This document shows, one piece after another, positions 982 to 63,588 of a DNA stretch of 64,000 nucleotides. A model generated the notes under the pieces. The model was not told where the DNA came from and ran no database searches. It saw only the letters and a list, made by a program, of their open reading frames with translations. The translations under genes were made by a program, and so were the position numbers. The stretch spans positions 5,494,501-5,558,500 of the forward strand of contig NC_092580.1 of NCBI RefSeq assembly GCF_037975245.1, in the 5' to 3' direction. Every line of letters starts with the position of its first letter. The stretch's first letter is position 1. Source of the DNA: Apostichopus japonicus (taxonomy: Eukaryota; Echinodermata; Holothuroidea; Aspidochirotida; Stichopodidae).

Positions 982-2181
982 TCACCTTTTGTGCCACAAG
1001 CCCAAGTTAAGCACCGTCAGGTTCGGCAGTTGCATAATCCTTTCCAACCCCAGTGTCGTTATTTTTGTACAACCGTATAAATCTATACATTTGAGCTTTC
1101 TAAGGTTCTCTGCAATAAGTGTCAGGCCTCTGTCAGTCAGTCTCACACACTGTCCAATGTTGAGAGTTGTGAGTCCCTTGAGGTTCCGTACAAGTCTTTC
1201 AAGGCCTTCATCAGTAATATGGCAAGAACTAAGGCTGAGACTGTCGAGATCATCCATTCCCTGCGCGATGTGGCCCAAGGCACCATCCCCGATCCGATCG
1301 CAAAAACTCACATCTAACACTCGGAAATGTGACCCTTTCTCTGCCAAATGAGCAATTCCAAGGTCACTAATATGGTCGCAACTCCTAAGGTTGAGGTCCT
1401 TCAGGCTGGACATGTTTGATAAACTGATCATTCCAGTATCAGAAATCTGGCAACAGAAACTCAGGTTTAGGGTCTCAAGGTTTGGGAGTCCTTTAGCGAT
1501 ACTACTTAATGAAGTATCACTGATCTGGCAGTCTTGGAGAATTAATGACTTCAAATTTCGTGTTCCTGGAGGTCGACTGATTGTTTTGAAGACACCAGCT
1601 AAGCAGCTAATACCATCATCTGAAATTAATCTACAACTTCTTAAATTTAAGTGTTTCAGTTTTTGCAAATACTGTTCAATAACCATTATTCCCATGTTTG
1701 ATATGCTACTGCATCCTGCCAGATCAAGGCTTTCTAATGAACGAAAACAATGTGCAATTCGCCGTAAACTTTTATCTGTTATCTGTTTGCATAGGCTCAA
1801 GTTAAGCACTGTGAGAGTTGTGACTTGCCTTGAAAATGCATGAGACAAACCCGCGTCAGTAAGGTTGTAGCAGCCACTCAAATTTAGGCTTTCGATATTA
1901 GGCATGCTTAGCAAAATGGAGCTTAGCCCTCTACGAAGACTTAATATTTGTACCTTGGTTATACCTCGGGTCACTAGGCTGTAGAACATTGAAGTGTTAG
2001 GGCTACGTTTGAGATGTAGCTTGGCTTCCACACCTCGCCATATTGAACGGTGATAAAGTGTGTCCCTCCATGCACGACATACTTGTGCTGCTCGACCCTT
2101 GTCAGCGACATCAAGATAGCTAAATATGATCGCCAAAATCTCTGGCAAAAGGAAAGCAACGTGTTCCTTATCCAGCGGCAT
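982..2181 (-). CDS. FBXL14: F-box/LRR protein FBXL14 (Ppa-like SCF substrate receptor)
   Basis: Single uninterrupted frame of 399 residues. An F-box covers about residues 8-50 (LLPEILAIIFSYLDVADKGR, then the AAQVCRAWRD core). About 11-12 cysteine-containing leucine-rich repeats follow to the C-terminus, including LNLSGCYNLTDAGL, LNLRSCDHISDLGI and LNIGQCVRLTDRGL. The last residues match the family's LNLGLW ending. Vertebrate FBXL14 is about 400-418 residues, so this is near full length. The family is the substrate-recognition subunit of an SCF ubiquitin ligase; known targets include Snail/Slug-type EMT factors, and the fly homologue Ppa targets Paired. The ATG at 2181 has A at -3 (good Kozak) and opens directly into the F-box. 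Oddity: the stop codon lies inside AAAAG/GTGATT, a plausible splice donor, so a short C-terminal tail could be encoded in a downstream exon. The gene is transcribed away from Wnt5, as in human FBXL14/WNT5B. Identity is very secure. Confidence 0.96.
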   Translation of the reverse strand: MPLDKEHVAFLLPEILAIIFSYLDVADKGRAAQVCRAWRDTLYHRSIWRGVEAKLHLKRSPNTSMFYSLVTRGITKVQILSLRRGLSSILLSMPNIESLNLSGCYNLTDAGLSHAFSRQVTTLTVLNLSLCKQITDKSLRRIAHCFRSLESLDLAGCSSISNMGIMVIEQYLQKLKHLNLRSCRLISDDGISCLAGVFKTISRPPGTRNLKSLILQDCQISDTSLSSIAKGLPNLETLNLSFCCQISDTGMISLSNMSSLKDLNLRSCDHISDLGIAHLAEKGSHFRVLDVSFCDRIGDGALGHIAQGMDDLDSLSLSSCHITDEGLERLVRNLKGLTTLNIGQCVRLTDRGLTLIAENLRKLKCIDLYGCTKITTLGLERIMQLPNLTVLNLGLWHKR

Positions 2182-2690
2182 GTTTCACTGAAACCAGACA
2201 CCACATTTCGAAGGCACAGTATCCATTAAATGAACGAATTTTCTTCCGAAAACTGTAGTAATAATCACTAGTTAGTCTGTACGCGCTATAAGGCAGCTTA
2301 GAAGCTGATCTGTATGTTGCACATGCGCACAGATCAACCTGAATCCGGAAACTAAGTCGTTGCCAATGCACACGTAGAACGGAAGGAAAAATCAGAGTCG
2401 GCTGTTTGTGGTTAAGGAAAGTCGATATAACCAGGTGCAAACTAACAGAATTTCTTAAAATCATTGCTCCATTAATTCCTGAACTAAATTCAATTATTTG
2501 AATGCAATGTAACCTGAAAATTATCATAAATATTGTACATTATTCTTATCTTAATCGAAAGCGTGCTGAAGTTAGTTGCAGCATGCATTTTGGAAGGTTT
2601 ACTTTATCACAATGTAAATTGGCAGTCGAAGTGTATGCGGTTGCGTTGTTTATTGTATATATAGTTACTTCACTGACAAAATTTCTGTCT
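2182..2690. other. FBXL14 5' flank / probable promoter
   Basis: Sequence between the FBXL14 start codon and the tRNA gene. It should contain the minus-strand 5'UTR and promoter. No TATA box at a convincing distance and no other coding signal was seen, so the core promoter is not located. Confidence 0.4.
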
Positions 2691-2763
2691 GGTCGGTTAG
2701 CTCAGTCGGCAGAGCACCGTGCTAATAACGCGGCGGTCATGGGTTCGAGCCCCTTACCGACCA
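2691..2763 (+). tRNA. tRNA-Ile (anticodon AAU)
   Basis: A 73-nt cloverleaf. The 7-bp acceptor stem is perfect (GGTCGGT with ACCGACC) and the discriminator is A. The D arm has GCTC/GAGC, and the anticodon stem is CCGTG/CGCGG with loop CTAATAA, giving anticodon AAU (isoleucine). The T-loop is TTCGAGC. The pol III A box (TAGCTCAGTCGG) and B box (GTTCGAGCC) are intact and a TTTT terminator follows at about 2769. There is no intron and no encoded CCA. The D-loop is one base shorter than usual in tRNA-Ile and the T-stem has one T-T mismatch, so it may be slightly degenerate, but the gene is probably active. Confidence 0.92.
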
Positions 2764-5176
2764 AGTACCCTTTTGTAATTTTTTTATCCCTTCTTTTTTA
2801 TCCCTTCTTTGTTTTTTCGTCCTCTATACGAATTTTACGAGTTGATAGACTCATAAAAAATGTGCTTTGTCAATTTGTCATGATGCGATTTTGAAAGGGA
2901 TGGATGCGGCGAGGGTGGGGGGGGGGGGCGGGGCGGGGTGGGGCGGGGAGGTTATGAGATGGATATAAGGAAGTTAGAACAAGGGAAAGTTCTAATCTTC
3001 CTGCTGCTTATTTTGTATTCTTAATGGGACAATAGAAAAAAGATCATTCCCTTTAAAACGGGGCCGACGTTAACATAGAAATGATTCGGTCAGAGGACAA
3101 ATCGAACTAGTTTGTCAAATACTTATCTTCTCATAATTATGTAAGCTGATGGGAAAGGAATATCCGTTGGCGGAAAAAACCTAGCCTGCATTCTCTTCAG
3201 ATTACGGGGAAATTACCAATCGTATTGCAATTGGAGGGGTATGCGAAGGAACGTTGGAGGGGACGGGTGGGCGTGGATTCATTAATCCAAAGGAAGCGCG
3301 TGCTAGAGCAAGGGGAATTTCACTGGATAGTTATTATTCCTAGCCACAAAATTTTAACTTTGTTCATGCATAGTGGTGCTGTAGGGAGTAGGGGGGGATG
3401 GGTAAGAGTAACAGCGGCTGGAAAAAAATACAAAGCGATTCACATGCCCTAATTATGCAAGATAGAGTGCACAAGGTCCGCGGGAAGGTAAAATAAGTCA
3501 AGCACAGTGTTATTTTAACCCATATTTAAGATAAACCAGGTTTGCTCCATTCATTTTTAAAATAGATGAGATTACTGTGGATGGAAGTTGAAGGTATCAG
3601 TATTTTCCCCAATCATTACGACATAATTTGATTACTTATAAGTGGTAACTTAAGCGCACCAGACTGTCTTCACTAGAAGTTTTCACATAGGGGAAGGGGA
3701 GGGGAGCTCCATCAGTTATCACCTTATCAAAAGACCTGATGGGAAAGGACAAACTTAAACCCACTTTAAAATACCTGTTCAGGAAACACTAATAGAAGAA
3801 GAAATATATGGTAGTGTACACCACTGGTGACCTCCCTTTAGAAAAGGAATGTTCCCACATTTTCCTATCAATCTCAAATTGAGAAGTCCATCTTGAATTG
3901 GGGCAGCTGAAGTGGTGGCGTACTTTTAAAATCGAGTCATAGATTAATAAATCTACGCTGTAATCAGAGCCGTATATAGAGAAAATGATTACTGCCCTCT
4001 ATTTCACATTCTCTGTCAGAGCCATAAAATGCCTATTCGTTATATCTGCGTTCAAATCTATCTAGCCCCATCAACTTCACTCCGCAACTTCACTCCGCAA
4101 TCTCAAAATCGATTTGCAGCGTGTCGCTGGTTTGTGGTAAAAACAAAACTATGTGAGTCATACAAGGCTACGTTTTGTTGAAGAAAGTGTTTAAATATTT
4201 TCGGTTCTTTAGCCGTGGGAATAATAAAAGCACAAATAATTTCCTGGTAGTCCCTGTGAATAGCAAATAAGATAAAGTTTAAACCCATTGAGGAACGAAA
4301 GCTGCTCGGATTGTCTTGTACGTGTTCTCACAACCATTTGCGAAAATGAAACAAATATGTATTATATGTTTTCAGTACACTATAAAACCACCGAATTTAC
4401 ATTTATCACACCCATCCAGTGACGCCATGTTGATGGAAACTAATTCCGACAGTTGATAATCTTTCTTTCATTTTGGAAGCCAAGAAAGACAAACTATGCA
4501 GGGGTGGAGGAGGGGGGGTACGATTTTAATAGGTCTAATTGAAGAAGTGCGTTGCCCAACAACGATTCATCCTCGCAAGCGCATAAGCATTATGTTGCAA
4601 ATGTATGATGTTGCATTCTATTCATATCAGAAAATGAAAATCATTTCTCAAAACTCACTAACACATAGCTTAATAGAATCCAGCCCAATCAAAGTCGTTA
4701 TAGTCAATGTAATCTGGAATAATCCGAAGCAAGCCACACACTTTTTTGGGGGGCGGGTTTTTTCTGGTTGAGGGGGTGAGAAGGAATACATCGTGGCGTT
4801 TTTATATGTTGATACAAAATTTAAAAGAGCACAGACTGATATTTTGGCTGGAACGGGATTCGATCAACTGTGCTATCCATCGATCAGTTGATAGCATTAT
4901 CTATATAGTCATATTTTTGCTAGGTTGTCCACAGTTTTATTACACACCGTGTTACCAGCGGTAGCCTCCCAATTCCACCCGGTACAAAAACGGCATGATA
5001 TTTAAAGAGAAATTAGCATTTCATTGTCAGTAGGTTAGTTTTTCGTTCTTCGTTATATATACCGATGTGTAAAGATTATAACACTTATCCTATCATCATT
5101 TAATGATATATGTCAAAAGGAATAAAAAATAAATGGGGGAAAAAGAAGAGCCTCTCTGTCATTGCACCAGTGAAAC

Positions 5177-5482
5177 CAGGCGCGTAGCGAGGAATTTGCC
5201 AAGGGAGGGGCGAACCTGTAGGCAAATTATCAGAGCCGTAGATTCGGCATTGGAAACTATCTAAGCTTAGCGCCACCATGGGTTGGCGCGAAGCGTACAA
5301 AACAGTTTTGGCCGAAAATGCCTCTCATATCGTTGGAAATGGAACTTCCCAGGCCTTGCAAGTTGCATCTAAGCATTTTCTATTTTGAAATTACTAGCGA
5401 TATCATAAAAACGTACAAAAAAATATGCTCAAGGGGGGGGGCGTCGCCCCTTCGCCCCCCCCCCCTTTGCTATACGCGCCTG
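5177..5482. mobile_element. hAT-type MITE with perfect 8-bp target duplication
   Basis: A 306-bp element with inverted termini: left CAGGCGCGTAGCGAGG, and the right end reads CAGGCGCGTATAGC in reverse complement. The element is flanked on both sides by AGTGAAAC (5169-5176 and 5483-5490), an exact 8-bp duplication as made by hAT transposases. There is no coding capacity. The interior contains a G9/C12 inverted homopolymer pair (about 5434-5466) near the right end. It must have been mobilised in trans. Confidence 0.88.
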
Positions 5483-6600: not shown

Positions 6601-6621
6601 CACTCGCACACACATATATAT

Positions 6622-6666
<45 letters not shown>

Positions 6667-6762
6667 TATATATATACACATACATATATATATAAATATA
6701 TATATATATACATACATACATACATACATACATATACATACATATACATAGCCTATATATAT
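6601..6762. repeat. Compound CA/TA microsatellite
   Basis: Alternating purine-pyrimidine tract made of CA, TA and CATA units. It keeps several frames open on both strands, which explains spurious IYIYIY-type open frames. Confidence 0.95.
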
Positions 6763-8712: not shown

Positions 8713-8730
8713 TATGCATGCATGCATGCA
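8713..8730. repeat. (ATGC)n short tandem repeat
   Basis: Four and a half copies of the self-complementary unit ATGC. Too short to interpret further. Confidence 0.85.
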
Positions 8731-17387: not shown

Positions 17388-17620
17388 ATGACCACGGCAT
17401 CAATGACAATGGCTGAAGGACACTGTTATTGCACATTTGACGGTGAACTGCAAGAAACTTTATCGACCTGCAGAAGATGTCCAAATATCGAAAACACGAG
17501 TTACGAACATAAGAGTTATAAATCGACAAAATACGGAGTCAGTTCTTTACCGAAAATAATTCTCTGGATTCTCGTCGGATATGTCACAATCACAATCACA
17601 GAGGCACAAGGCAAGTGGTG
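17388..17620 (+). CDS. WNT5: Wnt5 coding exon 1 (N-terminus and signal sequence)
   Basis: Begins at the first ATG after an in-frame TAA. The third ATG (17409, ACAATGG) has the better Kozak context and could be the real start. The hydrophobic segment [20 protein letters not shown] at about residues 55-74 acts as signal peptide or signal anchor. The exon ends in codon 78 (second W) at TGGTG/GTAAGT. Confidence 0.85.
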
Positions 17621-40900: not shown

Positions 40901-42397
40901 TTCTGGTATTGATTCGGAAGCAGTTTTAACAGTCAGAGGCAATTAAGTCATAAATCTCGATGCTTTTGTCAGTAACAACATGTCCTCTCTGTGTAACGTA
41001 TCAAAGTGTGCTGAAAACAAACACCACAAATCAAACCCATGTATATGTATCACAAACTAGACATTCTTTATCGACGTCATAATTCTACAGGATCACGAAG
41101 AATCGACTCGTATTTGACAAAGCCCATTGCTGTTTTGGAGGACGTTCATTATAGTTAACGTATTATGGTAGTGGTAACGAAGATAATACAATACAATATA
41201 ATTGAAAATTAGCAAAATGTGTACTATATGTAAGGCACGAAACATAGAAGTGAAATCAAAATTAGAAAAGTATAATCGATAATTGCGAAAAGACATGTCC
41301 ATTCACACACATACACACAGACCACCAAACTGTTAAACGAAGCTTGTATATCGGCAACGTACAAAAAGTATTCTTTCTAAGCCACGTGATTTTAGTTGGC
41401 AATAGTTTGATGTGTCACTTGTCTGCCTTGCCATGCCTGTACAGGCTGTGGATCCATAGGCAGGAGGAGGGGGGGGGGGGTGTAAGGGTGTACACTCCCC
41501 TCCTACTAACCCCCACAGAAAATTAAAAGTAGTTAGCCAAATCCATAAGTGTTAACCTAATTTATAACTCTAAATGTATAGCGTCTTAAGCTTTCTTTTT
41601 GGGCGAGAAAAGACCCTCATAAATGGGTGTCGGCTTCAACGAATTCAGGGACCCCCCCACCCTTCTTCCTAAAATTCTGGACCCATCCCTGCTGTATCAG
41701 CCCTTTACCGAGAATATTTGATATGTCGTTGAGTGCCGGTGGGTGGTAAGGGTTGGGTAGGTAGTGTAGTTCTTCACCCATGGGGCTATAAAATGCCTGA
41801 AAGTTGTGTAACGATCATAACATACATACTAGTGATAATATAAGGTAAATATATATAGTAATGTCGTGCTACGTATTACGGATTGATATTATAATATTAA
41901 CCTCCTGAATCTCTCTATCTCTCTCTCTCTCTTTATAGATCGTACAACAGTCAATGGAGATTCAATGTAAATGTCACGGTGTCTCTGGTTCCTGCAGCCT
42001 CAAGACCTGCTGGCTAGAAATGAGATCGTTTCGGGATATCGGAATCCTACTGAAGCAGAAATATGACGGTGCCGCCCCCACACACGTGAACAAAAAGGGC
42101 AAACTAATCAATAAGTATGTTCGCTTCAATAAACCGACCAGAACTGACTTGGTCTATCTGGACGAGTCACCGGACTATTGTGACTATGACCCGGTAGTAG
42201 GGTCACTTGGAACGCGGGGTCGCGAATGTAACAGGACCTCTATAGGTACGGACGGGTGCAACCTCATGTGCTGTGGTCGTGGGTACAACTCGTACACCGA
42301 GGAGGTAGAGGAGAGGTGCAAGTGTAAATTCAAATGGTGCTGTTATGTGAAATGTCGAAAGTGTAGATATACCGTGGAGAAAAGTGTTTGTAAGTGA
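17388..42397 (+). CDS. WNT5: Wnt5 secreted glycoprotein ligand, four coding exons
   Basis: join(17388-17620, 25254-25522, 37822-38114, 41939-42397) gives 1254 nt, i.e. 417 residues and TGA. All four junctions have GT/AG and matching phases (2, 1, 0). Wnt5-type landmarks in order: WW just after the signal sequence, [71 protein letters not shown] (with the palmitoleoylated serine), [45 protein letters not shown] and the terminal CK. I count 24 cysteines after the signal sequence, the usual Wnt number. Wnt5 is lipidated by Porcupine in the ER, carried by Wntless and signals mainly through Frizzled/Ror in non-canonical pathways. The subfamily call rests on the [19 protein letters not shown] and [10 protein letters not shown] regions, which fit Wnt5 better than Wnt4, 7 or 11. 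Odd point: a hydrophilic N-terminal extension precedes the signal sequence. Confidence 0.95.
17621..25253 (+). other. Wnt5 intron 1 (7.6 kb)
   Basis: Bounded by GTAAGT and a CAACAG acceptor. No additional exon or gene is supported. It contains several G or C homopolymers (for example near 18091, 20470, 20642, 21109 and 24046), a GGGGGAA purine repeat at 22272 and a short TA microsatellite near 24945. Confidence 0.75.
22272..22303. repeat. (GGGGGAA)n purine tract
   Basis: Imperfect 7-bp tandem units of G and A within Wnt5 intron 1, on the sense strand. It could form triplex or quadruplex structure. Confidence 0.8.
25254..25522 (+). CDS. WNT5: Wnt5 coding exon 2
   Basis: The acceptor at 25253 restores the second W codon (TG+G). 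The exon encodes the stretch from DLALDS through [29 protein letters not shown] and RRWNCSG to VFGRATTI, and ends in phase 1 at ATCG/GTAAGT. All conserved residues of the Wnt N-terminal domain are present. Confidence 0.95.
28410..28424 (+). repeat. G-quadruplex-type GGGC repeat
   Basis: Four G3 runs separated by single C bases on the Wnt5 sense strand, inside intron 2. It meets the simplest quadruplex rule with one-base loops. Confidence 0.7.
31290..31600. repeat. Diverged tandem repeat, about three units of 110-170 bp
   Basis: Three spaced copies of GTAGGATACATGTCG-like sequence (near 31299, 31410 and 31582), with related intervening blocks around CAACCGTT, TATATGCCCC and CCCAGATATAGGC. It lies in Wnt5 intron 2 and is old and decayed. 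Confidence 0.6.
34964..34990. repeat. (TA)n microsatellite
   Basis: About 13 TA units in Wnt5 intron 2. Confidence 0.95.
37822..38114 (+). CDS. WNT5: Wnt5 coding exon 3
   Basis: The acceptor TTTACAG joins in phase 1 (G+CG, Ala). The exon encodes [48 protein letters not shown] and [11 protein letters not shown]. It ends in phase 0 at AGG/GTAATT. It is highly similar to the central Wnt5 block. Confidence 0.95.
38115..41938 (+). other. Wnt5 intron 3 (3.8 kb)
   Basis: No gene supported. It ends with a CT microsatellite that serves as the polypyrimidine tract of exon 4, and holds a G14 tract near 41467. Confidence 0.75.
41905..41935 (+). repeat. (CT)n microsatellite forming the exon 4 polypyrimidine tract
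   Basis: CTCTCTATCTCTCTCTCTCT directly precedes TTTATAG/ATC at the Wnt5 exon 4 acceptor. Confidence 0.9.
41939..42397 (+). CDS. WNT5: Wnt5 coding exon 4 (C-terminal domain)
   Basis: Encodes the lipid-bearing thumb loop [16 protein letters not shown] and the whole cysteine-rich C-terminal finger. It holds 16 of the 24 cysteines, the sequon NRTS, and ends VEKSVCK then TGA. Reading starts in phase 0 at ATC (41939), giving IVQQSMEIQ before CKCHG. This replaces the usual family linker (about ...VYNLADVA) and is somewhat diverged. Confidence 0.97.
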
Positions 42398-45161: not shown

Positions 45162-45862
45162 CTAAACGCATGGTGATTTAACCACAATTCCGAAGTCACC
45201 AGTGTTTGCGACACTGACGACTGCAGCCCCCTCATCACCTGATAAGAGACTGATGTCTTTAAACTTATCAGAAATTGTGTCCAGAAGTGTCTCACCGACG
45301 TCACACTCTTGAAGTTTACGGTGATACCAAAACTGACACATGCAAGGCAGTTCACGGACAACACAGACGTGTAGATCCGCTGTGCTGCCCTCACTACACA
45401 GAGCCTGATTAGGTTTAACAAGATGAGAGAGCGTATATTCTCGGTTGTATCCCTCGATTTTTTCTTCAGTGACGATATCAGGAACAACACAACTCTTGGA
45501 AGATGGGACAGTAAAACTGATCGAAAGAACGTCAGATCCGTTTCTGACCACCAAACCAGTATCTGAAAGCGATATACTCTCAACCTGCTCAGTGGGAATA
45601 GCAACATTCGGTTGGAAAAACGGTTTGTCGGTGGAGACAAAACTATTCAGCGCCAATTTGTACATGGGTTCAGCAGTCTCGTCTTTGCCAGTGAGAAACG
45701 GTATGAAAAACTGCACGGTGTCGGCTTCTGTCGCATATGAATCTAACAAGTCCTCTGTATGTGCCGACGTAGCTTCAAGGCTGCCAAACGAAACTGCTAC
45801 TACGTGGTCCTCGTCCCCTATGAGATCTTGTAGCACAGGCGGATACGGTAAGGTTAATCCTC
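45162..45862 (-). CDS. Secreted unknown protein, exon 2
   Basis: Carries residues from GLTLPYPPVLQDLIGDED to SPCV and 7 of the 8 cysteines (including VCVVRELPCMCQFW). A 234-codon frame without stop entering from the acceptor at 45863-45864. Confidence 0.8.
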
Positions 45863-48053
45863 CTGAAAATACACCGAAAAAATGAATATATGGTATTCAC
45901 ACACACAAGTCGACTGAACGTATAACTTGATAAGTGAGCTGTTTAATTATATCAGCGCATTAAGTGTTCTTGAAAGGTATGAAAGGTTAATAGTTACGAG
46001 CAATATAACATGGAAAGGTCATATCCTAGTAAGAATTACGAGTCACCGTAAACTGTTACTCAGTTTATTCTAGTGCACACTTTTCCTATCAAATGAACTT
46101 GATCGATCATTATAGTCACACTAGACTTCGGATTTCAGAAACTTCTTGCACTAAAGTGATGAATAGCAGTGTTGTTATGACTGAGACAGTGACTCTGATT
46201 GGTTAAGGTCAAAAGCCTTTACTCGACTCAAGTCTCAAATCAACTCGACTCGAGTCATACCCTAAATTCGGGCCCAAACGGACTTGTGACTTTAGTCATG
46301 AAATCAAATAATTACCGTTATTACACCAGACTGCTGCTAGAGTGAACGACAGACTATAATGGCACAACAGTAAACTTGCATAATGGTCACACCTGCTTGT
46401 CAGCAACATGCGTAGGCGTGCACCAAGTAAATTAACTACGCAAATGGCAATTCTTAATGCAGTAAATTGACAGCAGCATTGTTATGCGTCTGTCAGAATC
46501 TTTTCACATAAAATATATGTTCCATTTTATACGACCTCTGACAACAGTGTAGCAGGCAAGTAATCCAATGATTCACATTGGTAAAGAGTCTTTCTCTGGT
46601 GAATAATTATTTGTCAGTTGTTACAAATGAACCAATAAGCATCACGGTTACAGCATTGTGACTGGAAGGAAACTAGCACAAGTGAGTTCACATTTATGCC
46701 CAACAAAGTGTTTAGTATTTCCTTTCATTAATTCGCAGTGACTAGACTTACATAACTAGTGACTCTACGTAGACAATCATGGACTCGAAGTGACTCCACT
46801 TAGATATAAAGGACTCGAACTTACTTTAATTACATAATCAGGGACTCGAAGTGACTCTATACTTAGATAATCAGGGACTCAAAGTGACTCTGATAAGACA
46901 ATCAGGGACTCGAAGTGACTCTACTTAGATATAAAGGACTCGAACTTACTCTAATTACATAATCAGGGACTCGAAGTGACTCTATACTTAGATAATCAGG
47001 GACTCGAACTTACTTTGATTACGTAATCAGGGACTCGAAGTGACATGGACTCGAAGTGACACTACTAAGACAACCAGTCACTCGGAGTGACTCTACTTAG
47101 ACAATCATGGACTCGAAGTGACTCTACTTGAGGTAATCAGCAGGGACTCGAAGTGACTCGGAGTCACAAAGAGACTCGACTCTGACACGACTTGAGCTAA
47201 TATTGAGAGACTCGACTCGACTTGAAATGTGTAATGCTCGACCCGACGTGAGTCTTTTCTACTTTGGAACTCGATTACAACTCACACGTGCTGAATACAC
47301 ACGTGCTGAAGACACGATGACAAACCCTTAAAAATATATGACGTCATGGCTTAACTGAACATTGGAAATACGACATTTTAGTCCAATTCATTACATCAAC
47401 AAGCGTGATAAATTGAACAAGATTTGAATTTAATGACGTAAAGGAACTTCGTCAAGCAACAACCAAACGTCTGTTCATATATTTGCGGATATAAAGCTAT
47501 GGAACTTAATTTAATCTCAGTTAGGTGGAATTTAATTTCTTTCTTAAAAAAATTGATGAATCTTGTAAGCTGAACAAACTTCTCAATTGAATCAAATGGA
47601 ATCAAAATCATATCAATACAACTAGGTGAATGCAAAACTTTGCGATGTATATATGCAGGTAACGTGATAGTGACTTAAAATTAACAACAACTAATCATGT
47701 TAAATATTATTTAATTCTTTTAAATTAATTCGCTTTCGAGAACAATATATTTTTCCTTCAGCAGGAAGGTTTTTTAATAACGTAGAAGTCAACAAATGAC
47801 AAATTTTTAACTGATTTAATTTATTTACATAATAAAAACTTAAAACAGCTTTCTTACCTGCATCACAGCTGCTCGAACTCGATTGTATCTCAGCCAGTTT
47901 CGCCGCAATCCTTGCCCTTGGAACAGAAAAGTATGCTACAATGCCATTCCAACGCGCATCGGTAACGCCTGAAATGAACACGCCATTCGACAAACCGGCA
48001 AAAGTTGCTAAATATAGCAACATGAGTGTTGAAATATGAATCGAAAAGGCCAT
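45162..48053 (-). CDS. Unrecognised secreted cysteine-containing protein, two exons
   Basis: complement(join(45162-45862, 47858-48053)) gives 897 nt, 298 residues plus TAG. The donor is GCAG/GTAAG, the acceptor is TTTTCAG/GAGG, phase 1 matches. The start is the ATG at 48053 (AAAATGG, strong Kozak), 20 codons inside a longer upstream frame, and it opens straight into a signal peptide (AFSIHISTLMLLYLATFAGL, cleavage probably near SNG/VF). The mature part has 8 cysteines, an even number that suggests disulfides, one sequon (NGS), an SSSSSCD turn at the junction and no further membrane segment. It contains acidic stretches (IGDEDHVV, TGKDETAE) and ends SPCV. I recognise no domain family. A short intergenic promoter with TATA/Inr precedes it. 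It could be lineage-restricted. That it is a real gene is well supported; its function is unknown. Confidence 0.8.
45863..47857 (-). other. Intron of the secreted-protein gene (2.0 kb)
   Basis: GT-AG intron in phase 1. Its central half is filled by an ACTCGA-rich minisatellite. No other gene seen. Confidence 0.75.
46205..47275. repeat. ACTCGAAGTGACTC minisatellite, unit about 32 bp
   Basis: The most regular part is 46750-47210. Units resemble GGACTCGAAGTGACTCTACT followed by TAGATAATCA, with variants (GAACTTACTTTAATTACATA). Diverged flanks keep the ACTCGA/CTCGAGT core. About 15 recognisable units. Confidence 0.85.
47858..48053 (-). CDS. Secreted unknown protein, exon 1 (signal peptide)
   Basis: Encodes the signal peptide plus about 40 mature residues (VFISGVTDARWNGIVAYFSV, ARIAAKLAEIQ) and the first cysteine, ending GATGCAG/GTAAG. 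Confidence 0.8.
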
Positions 48054-51862: not shown

Positions 51863-52608
51863 TTAAACGTATTGTTACGTTGGAATGCGAGAGGTCTCGA
51901 TAACTAATTTTAACGAGACACAAGCCTGGGTTCGTTTCCGTAAGGAACACAGACAAATTGACGAGTCTTGAGGTTTTAAATGAGAACGTAAACTATATTG
52001 AACAATGGATTTCGAACCGACAACAACAACAAACGGTAATTACAAATATACAGAAAATTACTCACAAACTTAACAAGATAGGATACACTTTAAAACACGC
52101 TGGTCTCTTCCAACGGCGATATCCCACAGCGGCCACGACCTTGAGGACGACGATTCTCGGTCCGTTGTACCGCGAAATTCACTGGTCCTCGACGAAGTTT
52201 CTCGCGATCCCAGAAACAGCAGTCACCTTCTTTCCGGCGATGCTCCAAAATAGAAGACGGACTTCCAGCCACAATAGAGTGAAGCACAAGTCGAACTTCT
52301 CGCCGACTAAATATTACCAGAGTCAGTCCAAAATCAGCTTTATAGCCACTAACTCCTGGCGTAACGAACTTCCTCAACGGAGACAGAAATTCTTCACCTT
52401 CTCCGAAATAAACACTGGAAAACTGTAGTTTCACAGCAAAGTCCTCTTCAAACTTCTGAATGGAAGTGTAGAATCAATCTTGGTATCGATATCTCAATCC
52501 TTCAGAAAATACTGGTAGTTGAGCACTGACGATATATAGTAGAATGATATAATATGTGTCGTCGCTTGTATTCGTACAGAAACTGAGAAACTCTCCGATC
52601 TGGGCGGG
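51863..52608 (-). other. ATG-free transcribed-strand region with a Met-less open frame
   Basis: Downstream of a minus-strand TATA/Inr promoter. No ATG occurs on the minus strand from the promoter to 51863. The longest minus frame runs 52466-52090 (about 125 codons without a Met). A pyrimidine-rich acceptor (CTTCCATTCAG) precedes its FEEDFAVKLQFSSVYFGEGE segment. It could be a long 5' leader, an internal coding exon, or noncoding RNA. An overlapping plus-strand frame (51958-52428) is equally long but has no better support. No family recognised. Confidence 0.3.
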
Positions 52609-52616: not shown

Positions 52617-52624
52617 CGATTCGC

Positions 52625-53761: not shown

Positions 53762-53820
53762 GGAAGGATTAAGAAATGCTGCAAGAGCTAAACATGGTAC
53801 AAGTGGTCTTTTTCCAGAAG
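53762..53820 (+). CDS. CCDC66: Ccdc66-like exon a
   Basis: Frame EGLRNAARAKHGTSGLFPE ends in phase 1 at CCAGAAG/GTAAGT. An in-frame TAA just before requires an acceptor (CATTAAAG) at 53761, which has a weak pyrimidine tract. The donor is strong. Confidence 0.5.
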
Positions 53821-56800
53821 GTAAGTTTAACGCACTGAAATTGAAGATTAAGGACTTTCTAGGCTTACACATCTTGGTTCAATTTTCCGGGCAAATTTCT
53901 AGATGTATAGCTATGTTTGTACATAGGAATATCATATTATTTTACAAGAGATCAGTCTTACTTGTCTGTCTGTCTGTCTGTCACAAAGCAGCTATTCATC
54001 GACATGATTTCAAAGAGAAATGTCAAAAACAAACAAAAGAACCTAAGGGTAATGCAGCAGCTCTAAGAAGTAGCATGATGCAGGTAATAATTTATCCAGT
54101 ATCGCATCGCAAAATACTACGAAAAATGGGTAGAGTTATAGGTGTGTAGCAGTGTTTGTACGTAGGAATCTCATAGTATATTACAAGAGATCAATTCAAA
54201 CTTTGATCACTAAATTATTTTACTTGTGATGTATGCAACGATGGGAAGTGATGCTTGAAGTACAATGCAGAGTGGTCCTCCTCAGAAGTCTGAATCTTGT
54301 ATTAATAAGGCAAGGAAAACTGGCTTGACCAAACTTTGAATATTGGTGTGATGTGAATCTAAGAAAGCCACTAAAAATGTTGAGTCAAGAAGTTGCTGTT
54401 TGAGCTGCCATGTGACAATAGAGAACTGGAAAATATTGTTTTTGTTAGTGAAATGAATTGATTCATAAATATTCATGTATGAGATTTAGATGTAAGGTTT
54501 CTATGACTCAGAGTCTCTTAAACAAATTTTTTATGATTTTGTTCTTAATTCAAATGAAATCAATTTTTTCTTTTGCTACAGAAAAGAAACCAAAGAAAAA
54601 GGTTAGTAAAATTATGCAATATATTTCAATGGGAGTCATAAACATGAAGTGTTCTGCATGTTTCATTGAAACAATGCTAATACATTAACAGCATGATAGG
54701 CACCTTAAGTAATAAAAACATGTTTATAATGTAAACATTTTTTTGTCTGCTTGATTTAACAATTGATCAAACCAACAATGACATTCTGGACAGTAAGATG
54801 ACCATTGTACAGCCAGGCCATCACTTAACCCTTGAGATCCAGCAAGAAATTTGCAATCTCATCTCTTTGTTTTAAGAAAAGATAAAGAAGAAAAGTTATA
54901 ATCCTTTCCTTTCAAAAGCTGTTCATACATTTTCTTTTTTATAGCAATTTAGTTATAAATCTCGAAGTCAGTCTTATCCGGTGAGAAAGGCTCAAACAGA
55001 TGTCGATAGTAAGGACGTTAGTAAACAACAACAACAACATCAACGTGCAAAAACAGGTTCTCAGAAAGGATCCTCAACTATTAAACAGCACAGAGTTCCC
55101 CACAGTGGCGAGAGAGAAAGATCTGGAAGCACAGAAAACAAGGGAAACAGTAATACCCAGAAGAAACAAGTTGTGGATTTTGTAAAGAAGAACAAGACAG
55201 TAGGTGGCACATCTGGAGGTGGCTCAGGTAAAAGATCCTCTGAAGTGAGAACCACCAATACCATCACTCTCACCCAGGAACAACTTAATGCTATTCTACA
55301 ATCTATTGGTACAGCCTCTGGTGGCAATGGTGCTCCTGCGATCGCAATCGGTGAGTAAGGGATGGTGTGGTCAGAGAGATGTCATTTGTTAATGACCAGG
55401 GATGAGCTCATACTGGGCGGCACTGGGCGGCTGCGCCCAGCAGTTCTGAATGCCGCCCAGCACAAACAGTATTTTAATCATTTCTGCCCGCACTTTTTGA
55501 TGATAATTTAACAAATTTTACCATAACCAAAATCTGGGAGAATACATGGCACAGAATATGAAAAATAGCACTAAATAAGCATACTTCATTTGTAAAATTT
55601 GTCCAGTGGGGAGGGGATACCCCACCCATGAGATTCCACTCCCAGGGTGTGGATCACACTAGCGCACACTCTACCTGGCACTCAAATATTCCTGAGCACA
55701 TCCCTGGATGACCAAAGAATTTACCAATTAGCTCAGGTTGGACTTGGTGGTATAAAGAGCTGCACGAAACAACTCTTGACTTCATGAGACAATTTGTAAA
55801 ATTTATCAACAGTTAGTGACTTTATGACGTAATTTGATAAGCAAAGAACAGAGGAGTCTATCATGATGATGATGATGATGATGATGATGATCATCATCAT
55901 CATCATCATCATTATCACTTCTTCAGCCTTTAGCAAAATGAGCTTTGCATTATCGACGGATGTTTTGAAGATATCTTGAAGGATATCTGTATTCTTTCCA
56001 AACTTTATCAATTTGGTAAAATTGTTTAAAGTAAGTTTCCTAGAACAGTTGACCATCCAGCTTCTTCCTACACACTGAAGAGCATGTGAATTAAATGTCA
56101 CAGTTAAAGGTAATGGTAATAGGCTCATTGATGTTAGAATATGACTGCTTTGTTATCCTACTTTCTAGTATGTTTTTGCACATTAGTGTTAACTGTTACT
56201 ATGAACTAGAGAAGATCTAGTTTTTACACTTTCTACATATCTATGACACTTACACAAGTCCTTTCTGTTAGTATGTGCATCATCACTCCTCTTGGGTTTA
56301 TGATCAGCTGTGAAATGTTAAGGGACTTAAAGAAACCATCTCAAAAGTTCAAATTTAAATAATGGCCTTTCTTTGATTTGCCTTACTCTCTTCAGAGAAT
56401 GGAGAAGTAAAAGTGGAAAGTCCTGATGTGAAAACCAATGGTACTGTTGGGCAAGAAAAGGATGAAAAGAGGAAAATGGATGACGACAGCAACAAGAACA
56501 AAGAAAGTAAGACAATGGATGAGGACAATGAGAAGAAGGAATCTTCCAAGAAAGAAACTGACGATGAAGATAAGAAGACAGTTGCCTCTGAGAACGTTTT
56601 CCATTTGTTGAAGCAACTTGAAGAGGATGATGGACGTTCAGATGATCATATTGTGACCGAAGTATCGTCTAAGCCGCCATCTTTGCCAAGAACAGCAGAC
56701 AGTAATGACAGAAAGATAGATACTTTACAGAGGAATGGTCAGTATTTGTTTGACTTTATGATGTTATGAAATGCTGTGCAACTTCTCCTGAGTTTCTGTA

Positions 56801-59800
56801 CTGCTGTATGGTATTCTTTGATTCAGACAACTGCCTGTATAGACTTTGTGTAACTTACGAACACTTATTTCTTGAGAAATTCAGTCCCATCTGTGAGAAT
56901 GCAGGTAACAATAGAAATTGCAGGTAACAATAGAGAATGCAGGTTACAATAGAAATGCAGGTAACAATAGAGAATGCAGGTAACAATAGAAAATGTAGGT
57001 AACAATAGAGAATGCAGGTAACAATAGAGAATGCAGGTTACAATAGAAATGCAGGTAACAATAGAAAATGTAGGTAACAATAGAGAATGCAGGTAACAAT
57101 AGAGAATGCAAGTAACAATAGAGAATGCAGGTAACAATAGAGAATGCAGGTAACAATAGAGAATGCAAGTAACAATAGAGAATGCAGGTAACAATAGAAA
57201 TTGCAGGTAACAATAGAGAATGCAGGTAACAATAGAAAATGTAGGTAACAATAGAGAATGCAGGTAACAATAGAGAATGCAAGTAACAATAGAGAATGCA
57301 GGTAACAATAGAGAGTCTTTTGCTTTATGATGTTATAATTACTGAATGGTTCCCTTTCCAAACCTACTTATAAATCTCTCAATTTGTGTGACATAGTTTT
57401 AGCTAGTTTGATTTCTGCAATATCAGGTAAAGTTTTCCATGGCATCTATTCAGTTAGCCTTTGGTTCAAATTGTATTCTGGGTGTTATCTGGTTAACACT
57501 TCTTTAAGATCATTCTCATGATGCAAATTAGCGGTGTAAACACCATCTGAAAACACCAACGATGATGTAACCTTACTTAGCTATGTCTACTTAACATTTC
57601 ATTTATACAGTGCTGCATAATGTTTTTACTCAGAGAACTGTCAAAGTTCTTGATGGCAGATTTAGTCATTGGTTTTCTGGTTAGTACTTCTCACTTAGTT
57701 TAATATTGTCGCTACCGCTGCTGCTGTAGATCTCTTTTTAAACCTGCACGCCACCACCGGTCCTTCTGGGGCAGGTTTTTCAAAAACAAGACTTCTAATT
57801 TATGCTGGTAACTCCATTTTAAAGAAAACTTAGCTTCTAAGCCATCGATAGAAATTCTCAAATAATTTCTTGAAATTATGGTTTTTCATGAGTGCTATAC
57901 ATTTTCCGCTTTGCTTGCAAAAGTAGTAACAAAAGTCCCTATGTCATCAGCCAAGGTCAAGAAGAAATAAAAGAGGATAGAAATTCTCAAATAATTCCTT
58001 GAAATTATGGCTTTTCAAGAGTGCTATACATTTTCCACTTTGCTTGCAAAAGTAGTAACAAAGGTCCTTATGTCATAAGCCAAGGTCAAGAAGAAATAAA
58101 AGAGGATAGAAATTCTCAAATAATTCCTTGAAATTATGGCTTTTCAAGAGTGCTATACATTTTCCACTTTGCTTGCAAAAGTAGTAACAAAGGTCCTTAT
58201 GTCATAAGCCAAGGTCAAGAAGAAATAAAAGAGGATTGTTTATCTAGTATGTATCAACCTTGAGTTCTGCCTATCTGAAGCATATCTGTTGTATCAGTTA
58301 CAGAATTGTTTCCCCAGCAGTGCTTTAGTTTGACCTTAGTCTGAATAAGACATATAAGAGGGGTGTTAATGTTCAGTTTAAGACTGCCTTTGTTTTCATG
58401 AGAAACGCTGATTAATATGAAAACTTTTGGCACCTTTGAAAGATGCACGTTACCATTGAGCCTATTCCAATATCTTTGACAAAGTTTCTGTAAAAAAGTT
58501 TTGATGGCAAAATTGATTTTGATTCATCCATTTTTTTAGGCCTGAAAGATTTGACATGGGGCAGTTCTGCAGGAATGGGTAACATCGGTGCTATTGTGGG
58601 GTCTCAAACCACATTAACCCTTCAGGAGAAGAAAAGACTGGAATGGAAACAAGCATTAGGTAAAGTGGACAGAGAAAGGAAGTATAAAAAGTTTATTTAA
58701 TTCTTGTAAGAAGTTTGACTCTATTAATAGAGACACAAAATTTCTACTCTGTACATAAAATTGTTTCTTTTTCCTTTGTTTTTTCTACATAAAATGACCA
58801 CTGAAAGAACTACCATTTTTTGTACCTGTTTTGTACATTTAGGTAACTAATACAGTAATACTGTTCATGTTAGGATTGCAATGGTTGTTATGAGCTACCA
58901 AAAGTTAAGGATTATTTTAAACAGAAGTATTCTTCAAACAACTTAAACGTTGCAGAAGGGTTGATATTGTTAGCTAGGCAAACTCAATCAATTAGTGGTT
59001 TCAGAACTCGGTTGGCATGAATTTAACTGTAAAAATTGTTCTTCAGACGAACAGAGAGCTGAGCAGAAACAACGGAAGATGCATGAAGATGCACTCCGCA
59101 AGTCTCTGGATGACAATGGAATCTATCACAGGCAGAGGACACCTCAACAAGCAGAGAAGATAACTCCTCCAAGTAGTATGAAAAAGGTAAATCTCATTCA
59201 GACAGTAAGTGTCTTGTCGTAGTTCAACGATCTGTGTCAACCAGAAAAGCTGCAGCTGCTGCAACCTGCCTTGCAGCAAGACTGCATAGATACAGCAAAC
59301 AATAGAGATATACTGCAGCAGAGCACCATTGCCTATTGTGTAATACTGCAGTGCATATTGTGTGAGACAGCACAAAAGACTAAGTCCAATACAGCCTGGC
59401 TGCAGCTGCTGCAAACTGCCCTGCAGCAAGGCTGCATAAATACAGCAAACAATAGAGATACACTGCAGCAGAGCACCATTGCCTATTGTGTAATACTGCA
59501 GTGCCTATTGTGTGAGACAGCACAGCACAAAAGACTAAGTCCAATGCAGCCTGGCTGCAGGATGCTGCAAACTGCCCTGCAGCAAGGCTGCATTAATACA
59601 GCAAACAATAGAGATATACTGCAGCAGAGGACCATTGCCTAAAGTGTAATACTGCAGTGTCTATTGTGTGGAACAGCACAGCAAACAAGACTAAGCCCAT
59701 TGCAGCCTGGCTGCAGCTGCTGCAAACTGCCCTGCAGCAAGGCTGCATAAATACAGCAAACAATAGAGATATACTGCAGCATAGAACAATTGCCAATTGT

Positions 59801-62800
59801 GTAATACTACAGTACCTATTGTGTGAAACAGCACAGCACAAAAGACTAAGTCCAATACAGCCTGGTTGCAGGATGCTGCAGCTACCTCAGCATCCTACTT
59901 TTGACATATTGCCTATTTAAAGGTATTTATTATTCCTGTCACACATGCTGTGGCTACATATCACTATAGATTTGGCACCATTCATCACATTTCTAGTCAG
60001 CTAGATAGTATTTACTCGGCAAAGTTACTCTCCCCCATTGAACTTTAAAATGTATCAGAGGCTTAATTTCTTCATATTTCTAGGATTCTAACATTTTAAT
60101 GGTCCTCATTTGGTTGATTAGCTAGACTTTGCTGCAGCATTTGCTAATTGTCTGGCTGGTCTGGTCTGGTTCAAAGATGCTGATGGTATGACTGATTGGC
60201 TGCAGCTATTGCAGGTTAATTGACATGCATGGCATGGCTTATTGACTAAATGTTAAGTCTGTTTAAAGAGTCTTAACAAGTTTCTGCAGGTTTAGCGATT
60301 GCTAATTGGTTGCTGGTTTCTGCATCTCCAGTGATCCCTGGAAAAATCAAGATGAGAAATTAAAATGCTGCTGGCACCTACACTAAGATGCCAGGTAGGT
60401 TCATTCATTGTGACAAACTTTACCAATTGATAAATCTGATGTGAACTACTGTGCCTTTCGGCACTCTTGTAATATTTAAACTTAGCAATAAAGTACCAGT
60501 TTTTAATGTCGACTGATTGGTTTCACCTTCAGGAATCAGCTGAGGATAGACTCATCCCTGAGTCGTCTCTTGGACAGGTTGCAAGACGGTCATTTGTCCC
60601 TGCTGCAATGAGGAGCAACTTCTTTATCGGAGTACGTATCGCTGAGGAGCTCAGCTGTTTTAGAATTTATTTATCTCCTCTCCATGATACATTGAAACTA
60701 CAGATGAGTATAACATGGGTCATGGCAGAAGGGGCATTGGAGGAATGTGTGGTTAAGGAGTATGTTATTATAGTTTAGTTTAATCTTAAGCTCCCTAAAA
60801 GTGTATTAGTAGCACTTATAAAAAAACTTATATAACATTGTTCACCAACTTAAATTGAGAATCAGCAACTTCATTTGACAAGCTTCACCAACTCTTTTTT
60901 AACCTTGCATGGGATGAAACTGCCATTTCCACGTATAAGTAAAATTTCTAACAATTTTCACCTGATAAAATGAGAAAACCTTTGATATTTGATTAATGCT
61001 TCAATGGGGGAGGATTGATTGACTAGCTCCAATTGATAATGCATGGAATGAAACAGTTATTTACATGGGTAGGAAAACTTTTGGCAATTTTCACCTGATA
61101 AATTGAGAACCAGCATCTTGATTTGCCAAACTTTGGTATTTGATGAACGCTTCAATGGGGAGGTCTCGGTCGATGAGCTCAATTGATGATGCATGGAATG
61201 AAACAGCCATTTACATGGGCAGTAAAAACTTTTGCCAATTTTCAGCTGAAAAATGAGAACCAGCAACTTCATTTGAATTTCTAAGTACGAACCTAGGTGC
61301 TCAATTATTTGACCAGAATACAGTGCATTCATACCCGCCAATGGGAAATAATTATAATGTTAGGTTTACAGTCTTGTTCAGGGCCAAGGCTCTCTCACGC
61401 AACTTTACATCTTAAAGCAGCATTTTGCGTTTGGTCGCCGTTTTCTATTTTTTTGACAAGTCCATCAAGTTTTTTACATATATCAATCACAAAACAGCAA
61501 ACTAAGATATCAGCCAAGTTTTTCCCTGCCAACATCGTTAATTTGCGAGTAATTAAGGATATTTGCAGAGAATGAGAAAAGTATCCACGACAAAATTCCA
61601 CATTTAAAATTAATCGCATACAGTACCCCAAACCCACTAGTTTGAAGTCAACCAATCAGAGATGCAGGTTTAGTTATGAGCCGTTGCTAAAAATAGATTC
61701 AAGACTTTGCATTGGCACAACCAGGGAGTTGTTATGGAACTCCCTGGTACAACTGCCATATAGACTGTACACAAATCAAGCTTGGTGTTGGATTACGTAT
61801 TGGTCAATGACGTTCGTAGTGTTTAAATATTCATATTATGGGCGAGGTTAATTGGGATCCCAACGGAAAATATCTTGGAGAAAAACAAAGTTGAAAGTTG
61901 CACATTTTTCGACTTTTATGCCACCATTTGAAGTAAGATTTAAATAGATAAGCTAGTTATGTATGTTGTTATGGCATAGTGAAGTCAGTGAGGTTGAGAA
62001 ATATCATAGTAAAGGACGCAAAATGCTGCTTTAACCCTGGTCATTGGTAACTTGTCACACACCTACACACCAAAGTGTGCACAATTCAATCAATCTCTCC
62101 TGGGGCACCACAGTGCACCACAAACATGTTTCTCCCGGGGGACTTCCCATAGGTGCAGCCACCAACCAGCGAACACAACTTTACTTACAAGTTACCTCGC
62201 AAGTCCCCAATTATACACCTGGGTGAAGAGAGGCAATGGAGATAAAGCGCCTTGCCCAAGGACACAACGCTATGATCTGGCCAGGAACCGAACCTGTAAT
62301 CCTTCGATCACAAGTCCACTGCCTTAACCACTTGACCACAACACCCTCACAAAAATTGTCATACAAAAAAATCACTGTTGAAGCACTGTGAAAGCTTTAC
62401 GTTCAACCAGACTTGATCTAACTCGTCAAATGAAAATAACAACCAAGAAAGCCTATTAAAAATTCAAATGATGACAATAAAGCAGAAAGACAGATATTCC
62501 CTGAACTAGTAAAGCTAGATGCCTAAGTAATAATCACATTTGCCACCCAGAATGTCCTGATATGGAATTTCGTTTTGGTTTTCCATATTTGCATAAATAC
62601 TGCCAGTTCCTTGAAAAAAAAATGATCACTTTGTTAAATTTGTGAAGATAGACCATGGATGTTTCTTATGCATCATAGCTTTCAGAAATATGGCAGTCAT
62701 ACGTCAGAAAGAAGAAGTCGTAGAATCCTACGAGAAGTGCGTCCCCCTTCCATCTAAAATGTATTTACAGTATCTAAAGTACAGCAAGCACATGATTAAT

Positions 62801-63588
62801 CAAGGACATTTACCTAAATTGGACAACAAAAAAAATGTTATATGAGTTATTGCTGTGCCATTTAACCCTACACTCTTTTGTAATGAGTAAAAGTTACTAG
62901 AAATACAGCAAAGCAGTGTTAACACTTCCTCATGTGACTATGCACATAGTCAAACAGTTAATGTTATTGACATTAGTATGAGGTCATAAGAGAGGGGCAT
63001 AGTTAGTAGTTTTATGCCTTTTAACGATCACCTTAAGAGAGGGGCATAGTAAGTAGTTTTATGCCTTTAAAGATCACCCAGCTGTTATCTTTCCTTACCA
63101 CGAGGAACACACTAAATAAGCCAGAAATCTTGTACTCTGTGGCTTCATATTTTAACGTTCAATAATTTAACGTTTTACCTTGAAGTTAGTATGATACAGT
63201 CATTTTATGGTGCTAATATTAATTACCAATTAAATTAATTGTAGCCATACTGATATTTTAGTACTAATAATGGGGTTATACTGGTACGTTGTTTGTTAAA
63301 GTGAAGGACATCCATCTGCGCTTGACTAATTATGCCTTATTTTCATATCTCAAAGTAAGGGCATCCTGTCTGACTAATAAATAAAAAAAAATAATTAAAA
63401 AAAGTATGTAGATTTTTTATGTTTTTTTTCTTTACCTGTAAAGTTTGCTGCCAACAATTATTTCATTTGATTTACTTTTCATGTTTTATATATATATTTC
63501 TCCTCTTAGGGTTCAGCTGGACAAAGGACGGATGATTACAATGCCCAGCTTAAGAGAAGAGAACAACAAGTATGGATCATAGAAATAG
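53762..63588 (+). CDS. CCDC66: CCDC66-like coiled-coil centrosome/cilium protein, 5' part
   Basis: join(53762-53820, 54582-54601, 54945-55350, 56396-56737, 58540-58659, 59047-59186, 60533-60631, 63510-63588) keeps one frame through seven GT-AG introns, giving about 421 codons; neither the start codon nor the C-terminus is in the window. Family evidence: TITLTQEQLNAILQSIG matches the CCDC66 LTQDQLQQIL motif, LQEKKRLEWKQAL resembles EAKKAQWKKELDEQ, and LKRREQQVWIIEI fits the later EELNKQ-type helix. Most of the protein is charged and low complexity (Q-rich, then K/D/E-rich at 56396-56737), and coiled coil begins around 58600. CCDC66 is a microtubule-binding protein of centrosomes, satellites and primary cilia. 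The linkage to Wnt5 independently supports the call. Gene structure is firm; the family name is probable. Confidence 0.7.
53989..54083 (+). CDS. Possible alternative Ccdc66-like exon
   Basis: Fits exon a in phase (G+CA) and encodes AIHRHDFKEKCQKQTKEPKG and NAAALRSSMMQ, ending in phase 0 at CAG/GTAATA. Its inclusion would require the next microexon to use an internal AG five bases downstream (15 instead of 20 nt) to keep frame. Acceptor CACAAAG is mediocre. Confidence 0.25.
54582..54601 (+). CDS. CCDC66: Ccdc66-like microexon (20 nt)
   Basis: An excellent acceptor (TTTTTTCTTTTGCTACAG) and a GTTAGT donor enclose 20 nt that link exon a (phase 1) to exon c (phase 0), giving EKKPKKK. Confidence 0.5.
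54945..55350 (+). CDS. CCDC66: Ccdc66-like exon c (LTQEQL motif)
   Basis: Acceptor TTTTTTATAG, 406 nt, donor ATCG/GTGAGT. Basic and polar, with a QQQQHQ run; it ends with a short conserved helix TITLTQEQLNAILQSIG, the best CCDC66 marker in the window. Confidence 0.85.
55396..55707. mobile_element. Inverted-repeat element, CCAGGGATGAGCTCA termini
   Basis: The left end CCAGGGATGAGCTCA and right end (reverse complement CCAGGGATGTGCTCA) match at 14 of 15 bases. ATGA flanks both sides. The interior has an inverted GGGCGG/CCGCCC hairpin (CTGGGCGGC near 55413 to GCCGCCCAG near 55453). CAGGG termini suggest hAT ancestry, but an 8-bp duplication is not seen. Confidence 0.7.
55869..55912. repeat. Perfect (ATG)n/(CAT)n palindrome
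   Basis: Twenty-two bp of ATG repeats run directly into 22 bp of their reverse complement with no spacer, centred between 55890 and 55891. Confidence 0.95.
56396..56737 (+). CDS. CCDC66: Ccdc66-like exon d (acidic/lysine-rich)
   Basis: Acceptor CTCTCTTCAG, 342 nt, in and out in phase 1. K/D/E-rich low complexity (for example DDDSNKNKES, KKETDDEDKK) followed by ENVFHLLKQLEEDDG, a probable helix. Donor AATG/GTCAGT is non-ideal but phase-correct. Confidence 0.85.
56896..57313. repeat. 19-bp minisatellite, about 22 copies
   Basis: The consensus is GAATGCAGGTAACAATAGA with A/G, T/C and CAAG variants. Because 19 is not a multiple of 3 and the minus strand lacks stops, all three minus frames read through it as a 19-residue leucine-rich repeat; this is an artefact, not a protein. 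Confidence 0.97.
57847..58233. repeat. 129-bp tandem triplication
   Basis: Three direct copies start at 57847, 57976 and 58105 (GATAGAAATTCTCAAATAAT). Copies 2 and 3 are nearly identical, copy 1 differs at several positions. Confidence 0.95.
58540..58659 (+). CDS. CCDC66: Ccdc66-like exon e
   Basis: Encodes GLKDLTWGSSAGMGNIGAIV then LQEKKRLEWKQAL, in and out in phase 1 (donor TTAG/GTAAAG). The glycine-rich lead and the start of a long charged helix resemble the CCDC66 segment before its first coiled coil. Confidence 0.85.
58660..59046 (+). other. Ccdc66-like intron
   Basis: 387 bp, phase 1, plain AT-rich sequence; nothing further seen. Confidence 0.8.
59047..59186 (+). CDS. CCDC66: Ccdc66-like exon f (coiled coil)
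   Basis: Acceptor GTTCTTCAG; DEQRAEQKQRKMHEDALRKS continues the helix, then PQQAEKITPPSSMKK. Ends in phase 0 at AAAAAG/GTAAAT. Confidence 0.85.
59187..60532 (+). other. Ccdc66-like intron with GCAGC-rich satellite
   Basis: Phase 0 intron of 1.35 kb, nearly half of it a tandem array of about 155-bp units. Plus-strand frames in it come from the repeat. Confidence 0.8.
59251..59890. repeat. About 155-bp tandem repeat rich in CTGCAG
   Basis: Four full units start at 59251, 59401, 59556 and 59712, with a partial fifth at 59867 (spacings 150, 155, 156, 155). Each contains TGCAGCTGCTGCAAACTGCC or its GGATGCTGC variant, GCAGCAAGGCTGCAT, and TATTGTGTAATACTGCAGTG. Confidence 0.95.
60533..60631 (+). 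CDS. CCDC66: Ccdc66-like exon g
   Basis: Acceptor CACCTTCAG, 99 nt, phase 0 in and out. Encodes ESAEDRLIPESSLGQVARRS then FVPAAMRSNFFIG; donor ATCGGA/GTACGT. Serine/arginine linker with no domain signature. Confidence 0.8.
60850..61290. repeat. Diverged tandem repeat, unit about 150-170 bp
   Basis: Nearly three units share GAGAACCAGCAACTTCATTTG, TTCAATGGGG, GCATGGAATGAAACAG, CATTTACATGGG and CAATTTTCACCTGATAAA in the same order, with substitutions and small indels. Confidence 0.8.
61416..62030. mobile_element. TTAA-flanked inverted-repeat element (piggyBac-type MITE)
   Basis: The termini AGCAGCATTTTGCGT and its inverted copy (ACGCAAAATGCTGCT) are exact over 15 bp. The element is flanked by TTAA at 61412-61415 and 62031-62034, the target site and duplication of piggyBac elements. 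It is 615 bp with no transposase frame. Confidence 0.75.
62048..62345 (-). mobile_element. tRNA-derived SINE
   Basis: On the minus strand the head contains an A box TGGTCAAGTGG (62338-62328) and a B box GGTTCGGTTCC (62294-62284), spaced as in tRNA genes. It is followed by a body with GTGTCCTTGGGCAAGGCGCT and CACCCAGGTGTATAATTGG, sequence of a kind seen in dispersed repeats of many marine animals. The 3' end runs toward 62048. The target duplication was not identified. Confidence 0.7.
62987..63079. repeat. 46-bp direct duplication
   Basis: Two copies of AAGAGAGGGGCATAGTTAGT followed by AGTTTTATGCCTTTTAACGA, differing by a few bases. Confidence 0.9.
63510..63588 (+). CDS. CCDC66: Ccdc66-like exon h (last in window)
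   Basis: Acceptor TTTCTCCTCTTAG; encodes GSAGQRTDDYNAQLKRREQQ then VWIIEI, ending phase 1 at AATAG/GTAAAT. The next exons lie outside the window. Confidence 0.8.

Follow-up and report, generated by a model that had tools for sequence, protein, structure and literature searches.

ERC, FBXL14, Wnt5 and a nearby CCDC66 in the sea cucumber Apostichopus japonicus: a probable single-copy form of an ancient bilaterian gene neighborhood

The 64,000-nucleotide stretch of the Apostichopus japonicus genome analyzed here (the window; C20:5494501-5558500) carries FBXL14, Wnt5 and part of a coiled-coil gene identified as CCDC66. Together with its flanking sequence, it is read as the single-copy sea cucumber version of an ancient bilaterian Wnt5 neighborhood, in which ERC, FBXL14 and Wnt5 have been kept adjacent, other members of the block have been dispersed along the chromosome, and CCDC66 lies just downstream of Wnt5 (probability about 0.8). 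The ERC-FBXL14-Wnt5 core is not new: fbxl14-wnt5 and atxn10-wnt7 have been described as conserved pairs of a bilaterian Wnt5-7 block, along with erc1/2, cacna1d, cacna2d, ninj and dcp1 (PMC8851819). Both the FBXL14-Wnt5 arrangement in single copy and the duplication of the region have been published before, so the window represents a further instance. The linkage of CCDC66 is the new part, and it is a modest addition. Genome-wide searches were run on the 671.58 Mb assembly (35 contigs) of this one sea cucumber, on which the comparison with human gene maps rests. Coordinates without a contig name are positions in the window.

The order of genes along the forward strand is ERC (+), FBXL14 (-), Wnt5 (+), a predicted gene (-) and CCDC66 (+). 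All nine genome-wide matches to the Cast profile (PF10174) were found at C20:5385606-5452285 on the plus strand, arranged in profile order and spanning positions 2-759 of 766. The last matched exon of ERC is 42 kb upstream of the window, and a PDB comparison of one exon gave ELKS/ERC1. The interval from ERC to FBXL14 yielded no further protein gene, only three short, weakly scoring coding-like stretches; nor did the interval from FBXL14 to Wnt5, in which a tRNA-Ile gene lies. Human ERC1, FBXL14 and WNT5B at 12p13.33 have the same order and orientation. According to published maps, Wnt5b adjoins Fbxl14 and Adipor2 with Erc1 close by, Wnt5a adjoins Erc2 and Cacna2d3, and Erc1/2 and Fbxl14 are found near the single Wnt5 of both Ciona and the fruit fly (PMC2922100). 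The links among WNT5/7, ERC1/2 and FBXL14 have been described as being of greater age, and more firmly kept, than the links with ATXN10 and FBLN1/2 (PMC9750109). It is very improbable that the sea cucumber linkage is an assembly error, given that no N occurs in the 264 kb examined, that ERC-FBXL14-Wnt5 is the published arrangement, and that the contig N50 of the A. japonicus assembly is 17.2 Mb (PMC10344927).

The Wnt gene has four coding exons on the plus strand that join in phase (17388-42397) and specify a product of 417 aa. Exon 1 (17388-17620) is in phase with exon 2 (25254-25522), which matches the Pfam wnt family (E 1.1e-13); exon 3 (37822-38114) was recovered by the genome-wide wnt search (E 1.2e-29), and exon 4 (41939-42397), which includes the stop codon, has both a strong Pfam wnt match (E 3.7e-62) and Wnt-5a as its best PDB match (E 3.2e-59). 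When the whole product was compared with its 12 PDB matches, Wnt-5a scored 463 bits, Wnt-7a 340 bits and the rest at most 300.2 bits, so that the gene is, by this measure, closest to Wnt5 among the Wnt classes compared, which are those with a PDB chain. As a control, the same comparison ranks Wnt-7a highest for the Wnt gene at C20:29.93 Mb. A group of four matches to the last exon of Wnt genes was seen at C23:17.27-17.44 Mb and is probably the known Wnt cluster.

FBXL14 is a single coding exon on the minus strand (982-2181, with the ATG at 2179-2181 and the stop codon at 982-984) within an open frame of 400 codons (985-2184). The product shows an F-box followed by leucine-rich repeats along the whole protein (F-box-like, E 4.2e-11; LRR_6, E 1.1e-36), and the gene is the sole close copy found genome-wide, with 12 other matches that are no more than 36% identical (33% for the best-scoring one). 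None of the 19 PDB matches of the product is FBXL14 itself, and the specific name is a putative one that follows a similarity to the human FBXL14 protein. On the opposite strand, 0.5 kb upstream of the FBXL14 start codon and between it and Wnt5, is the gene for tRNA-Ile(AAT) (2690-2764, plus strand), predicted by ARAGORN and matching Rfam RF00005 with 61.2 bits.

The published Wnt5-7 block comprises nine families: wnt5, wnt7, fbxl14, atxn10, erc1/2, cacna1d, cacna2d, ninj1/2 and dcp1a/b (Robert et al. 2022, PMC8851819). All but cacna1d were tested, and all eight are present on C20, a contig that makes up 5.3% of the genome. Wnt7 is located at 29.93 Mb, and 18 kb from it is the only ATXN10 match in the genome (C20:29950270-29950434, or 29.95 Mb); this pair has been kept on the same chromosome as Wnt5 but 24 Mb away, and is not part of the same close block. 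Both genome-wide matches to DCP1 lie at C20:18.84-18.90 Mb, the single NINJ match is at C20:19.59 Mb, and the two CACNA2D matches (PF08399), recognized as alpha-2/delta by their PDB matches, are at C20:4.41 and 34.40 Mb. The original prediction had proposed a search for ERC and CACNA2D homologs in neighboring sequence, and these results answer it: ERC adjoins FBXL14, and both CACNA2D-type genes are on C20. The sea cucumber therefore shares with the bilaterian block the adjacency of ERC, FBXL14 and Wnt5, the pairing of Wnt7 with ATXN10, and a chromosome that also carries DCP1, NINJ and CACNA2D, but differs in having two tight parts that are 24 Mb apart, and in having CCDC66 close to Wnt5.

In mammals, CCDC66 is a microtubule-associated protein of centrosomes and cilia (PMC6776500, PMC12324684). 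Fourteen exons of the sea cucumber gene were found, all on the plus strand, of which seven are in the window (54945-63588) and seven are beyond it. The former begin with the first exon found (54945-55350), followed by 56396-56737, 58540-58659, 59047-59186, 60533-60631, 62686-62736 and 63510-63588; the sixth of these, at 51 bases, is the weakest and is supported by phase only. The further exons, at 65033-70155 in window numbering, contain the Pfam domain. An exon with a start codon was not found among the 14. The original prediction had described eight exons ending at 63588; this has to be amended, as there are seven in the window and the gene extends 6 kb further. Three tandem arrays are present in introns of the gene, at 56895-57314 (19-bp unit), 57847-58236 (129-bp unit) and 59249-59880 (155-bp unit).

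When joined, the 14 exons encode 942 aa, and this sequence scores 77.6 bits (E 1.2e-21) against the Pfam family CCDC66 (PF15236), for which the cut-off is 29.9; no other family was found at E≤1. Searching the whole genome with the same profile gave two matches, both in this gene (C20:5561188-5561358 and C20:5562523-5562648; E 5.2e-6 and 0.32), with one exon above the cut-off at 34.9 bits. The seven exons in the window match no Pfam family at E≤0.01 when joined. Of five single frames compared with Pfam, four showed no family and one gave Sua5_C (E 0.069) and RPN2_C (E 0.86), while among three further single frames one gave DUF1601 (E 0.88) and two gave none. The profile search that had been suggested for the joined exons thus fails within the window and succeeds with all 14 exons. 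The Pfam domain is encoded past the end of the window; the earlier naming of the gene was correct, although the window by itself offers no proof of it.

Coiled coils are prone to spurious matches, and the silence of the seven window exons would also be expected if the gene at 54945-70155 were a chance match or belonged to another coiled-coil family. Against this, CCDC66 is the only family matched, at a score far over the curated cut-off, and the independent genome-wide search found two exons of this gene and nothing elsewhere. In addition, four coiled-coil exons of ERC put Cast first and did not return CCDC66, either among the best 25 of 28 families (one exon) or among all families (the other three). 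On these grounds an unrelated coiled coil was rejected and is given hardly any weight, and by its profile match the gene is CCDC66. All three genes named in the original prediction, FBXL14 (putative in its specific name), a single Wnt5 and a CCDC66-like gene, are borne out, with CCDC66 depending on the exons past the window.

Several observations weigh against the reading of the locus as an ancient neighborhood with CCDC66 beside Wnt5. Although the two genes are at most 12.5 kb apart, they are separated by the predicted minus-strand gene (45162-48053), so immediate adjacency was rejected. This gene has two exons (47858-48053 and 45162-45862) with phase-consistent splice sites and a reading frame of 298 aa; the long exon has a coding score of 29 and the first exon is below the listing threshold. 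The predicted protein has a signal-peptide-like start (judged by eye) and a cysteine-containing C-terminal part, matches no Pfam family, and is possibly lineage-specific. Between this gene and CCDC66 there are also two overlapping, weak coding-like stretches on the minus strand (52088-52458, scores 14 and 15). The spacing of the five genes of the block is 35.8 kb per gene (about 45 kb if the predicted gene is left out), compared with 33.9 kb genome-wide (gene number from PMC10344927). Average gene spacing thus gives no local support for a regulatory desert, and neither supports nor excludes the regulatory-block model. A further copy of Wnt5 or Wnt7 elsewhere in the genome is formally possible, two Wnt genes having been classed by search. 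The HlyIII family, which should include the vertebrate WNT5B neighbor ADIPOR, gave seven matches, all of them distributed over four contigs other than C20, whereas ADIPOR2 comes next in vertebrates. Genome searches with PF12509 for TASOR, a human neighbor of CCDC66, and with PF08473 for CACNA2D gave no match and are uninformative, and for CACNA2D it was PF08399 that then gave the two genes. Lastly, human CCDC66 lies about 1 Mb from WNT5A, beyond ERC2, so that the side of the block differs from that in the sea cucumber; the human WNT5A region at 3p14 is also not known to have an FBXL14.

CCDC66 has probably belonged to this chromosome for a long time and perhaps to the Wnt5 neighborhood as well, and the odds that it is ancestral to the Wnt5 block are near even. 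The original prediction saw in the window a pre-duplication block around one Wnt5: an ancestral FBXL14-Wnt5-CCDC66 arrangement would have been duplicated in vertebrates, after which the WNT5A region would have lost FBXL14 and the WNT5B region CCDC66. FBXL14 and ERC beside Wnt5 fit the published block and that part stands, but CCDC66 as an ancestral neighbor does not share this backing. Reciprocal loss is possible and partly supported, and is rated a little under an even chance. It would require CCDC66 to have switched sides in the WNT5A copy. In its favor, both partners flank one Wnt5 in the sea cucumber, the Wnt5a and Wnt5b regions of vertebrates have been proposed to be duplicates (PMC2922100), and one human study reported that a variant in an intron of CACNA2D3 interacts with CCDC66 in chromatin (PMC9830790). 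Human ERC2 and CACNA2D3 (PMC2922100) and CCDC66, at 3p14.3 (PMC5423597), share one region with WNT5A. In a fuller form of the proposal, the common ancestor of echinoderms and vertebrates would have had ERC-FBXL14-Wnt5-CCDC66, of which the WNT5B copy kept FBXL14 and the WNT5A copy kept CCDC66, with the control DNA of Wnt5 holding the genes together; this is advanced tentatively, at not quite even odds.

Alternatively, ERC-FBXL14-Wnt5 would be ancestral and CCDC66 would have moved beside Wnt5 independently, by shuffling within a conserved ancestral chromosome. Other genes of the block lie millions of bases away along C20, which indicates that genes have readily changed places within the chromosome, and the position of human CCDC66, on the far side of ERC2, also agrees with a separate move. 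None of the three papers on the block (PMC8851819, PMC9750109 and PMC2922100) brings up CCDC66 in its main text, though the supplements may name it. Literature searches returned no account of CCDC66 gene order, in the broadest case among 40 of 110 papers as judged by title, and the papers examined yielded nothing on CCDC66 outside vertebrates. By a crude estimate, the chance of one named gene on the same chromosome falling within 2-4 genes of Wnt5 is 0.4-0.8%, rising to about 4-8% if any of ten human neighbors would have counted. On the other side, close linkage of CCDC66 and Wnt5 in both lineages (≤12.5 kb in the sea cucumber; about 1 Mb in human, with ERC2 between) is likelier by descent than by chance. 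Independent juxtaposition is given somewhat less than an even chance.

For the linkage that has been held, cis-regulatory constraint around Wnt5 is the best-supported idea and the most likely mechanism; the original prediction, too, proposed that long Wnt5 regulatory DNA could hold the block together. Wnt5 is a developmental gene that would have distant enhancers, a number of which would lie within neighboring genes or past them, and chromosome breaks that part ERC and FBXL14 from Wnt5 would then be selected against, with ERC and FBXL14 retained as bystanders. The published block has been described as consistent with cis-regulatory constraint, with earlier work cited for wnt7-atxn10, and its gene density as low in most of the bilaterians examined (PMC8851819).

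Other features were seen in and around the locus. A tandem array with a 31-bp unit (46758-47159) lies within the intron of the predicted gene. Downstream of CCDC66 are minus-strand exons with SH2 and tyrosine-kinase matches, which by reading together with these matches are FER/FES-like; one open frame there matches PI-PLC-X below threshold (E 0.03), and a plexin-like frame, named by reading alone, had no Pfam match at E≤1. About 61 kb past CCDC66, at approximately 131000-143000 in window coordinates, are frames that by eye resemble reverse transcriptase and long retroelements. Elsewhere in the assembly, five COX1-like fragments (C29:14745-31219) are separate from the mitochondrial contig, C35; they would be nuclear in location, or else a fragment of the assembly. 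The COX1 gene of C35 has AAA codons at sites of conserved Asn, in agreement with the echinoderm genetic code.

At the chromosome scale, this echinoderm view separates the links of the Wnt5-7 block that have been held, ERC-FBXL14-Wnt5 and Wnt7-ATXN10, from those that have loosened to linkage on the same chromosome. If CCDC66 is an old neighbor of Wnt5, it would provide an extra marker with which both WNT5 regions of vertebrates could be followed back to a single ancestral region, and would suggest where Wnt5 enhancers might be sought.

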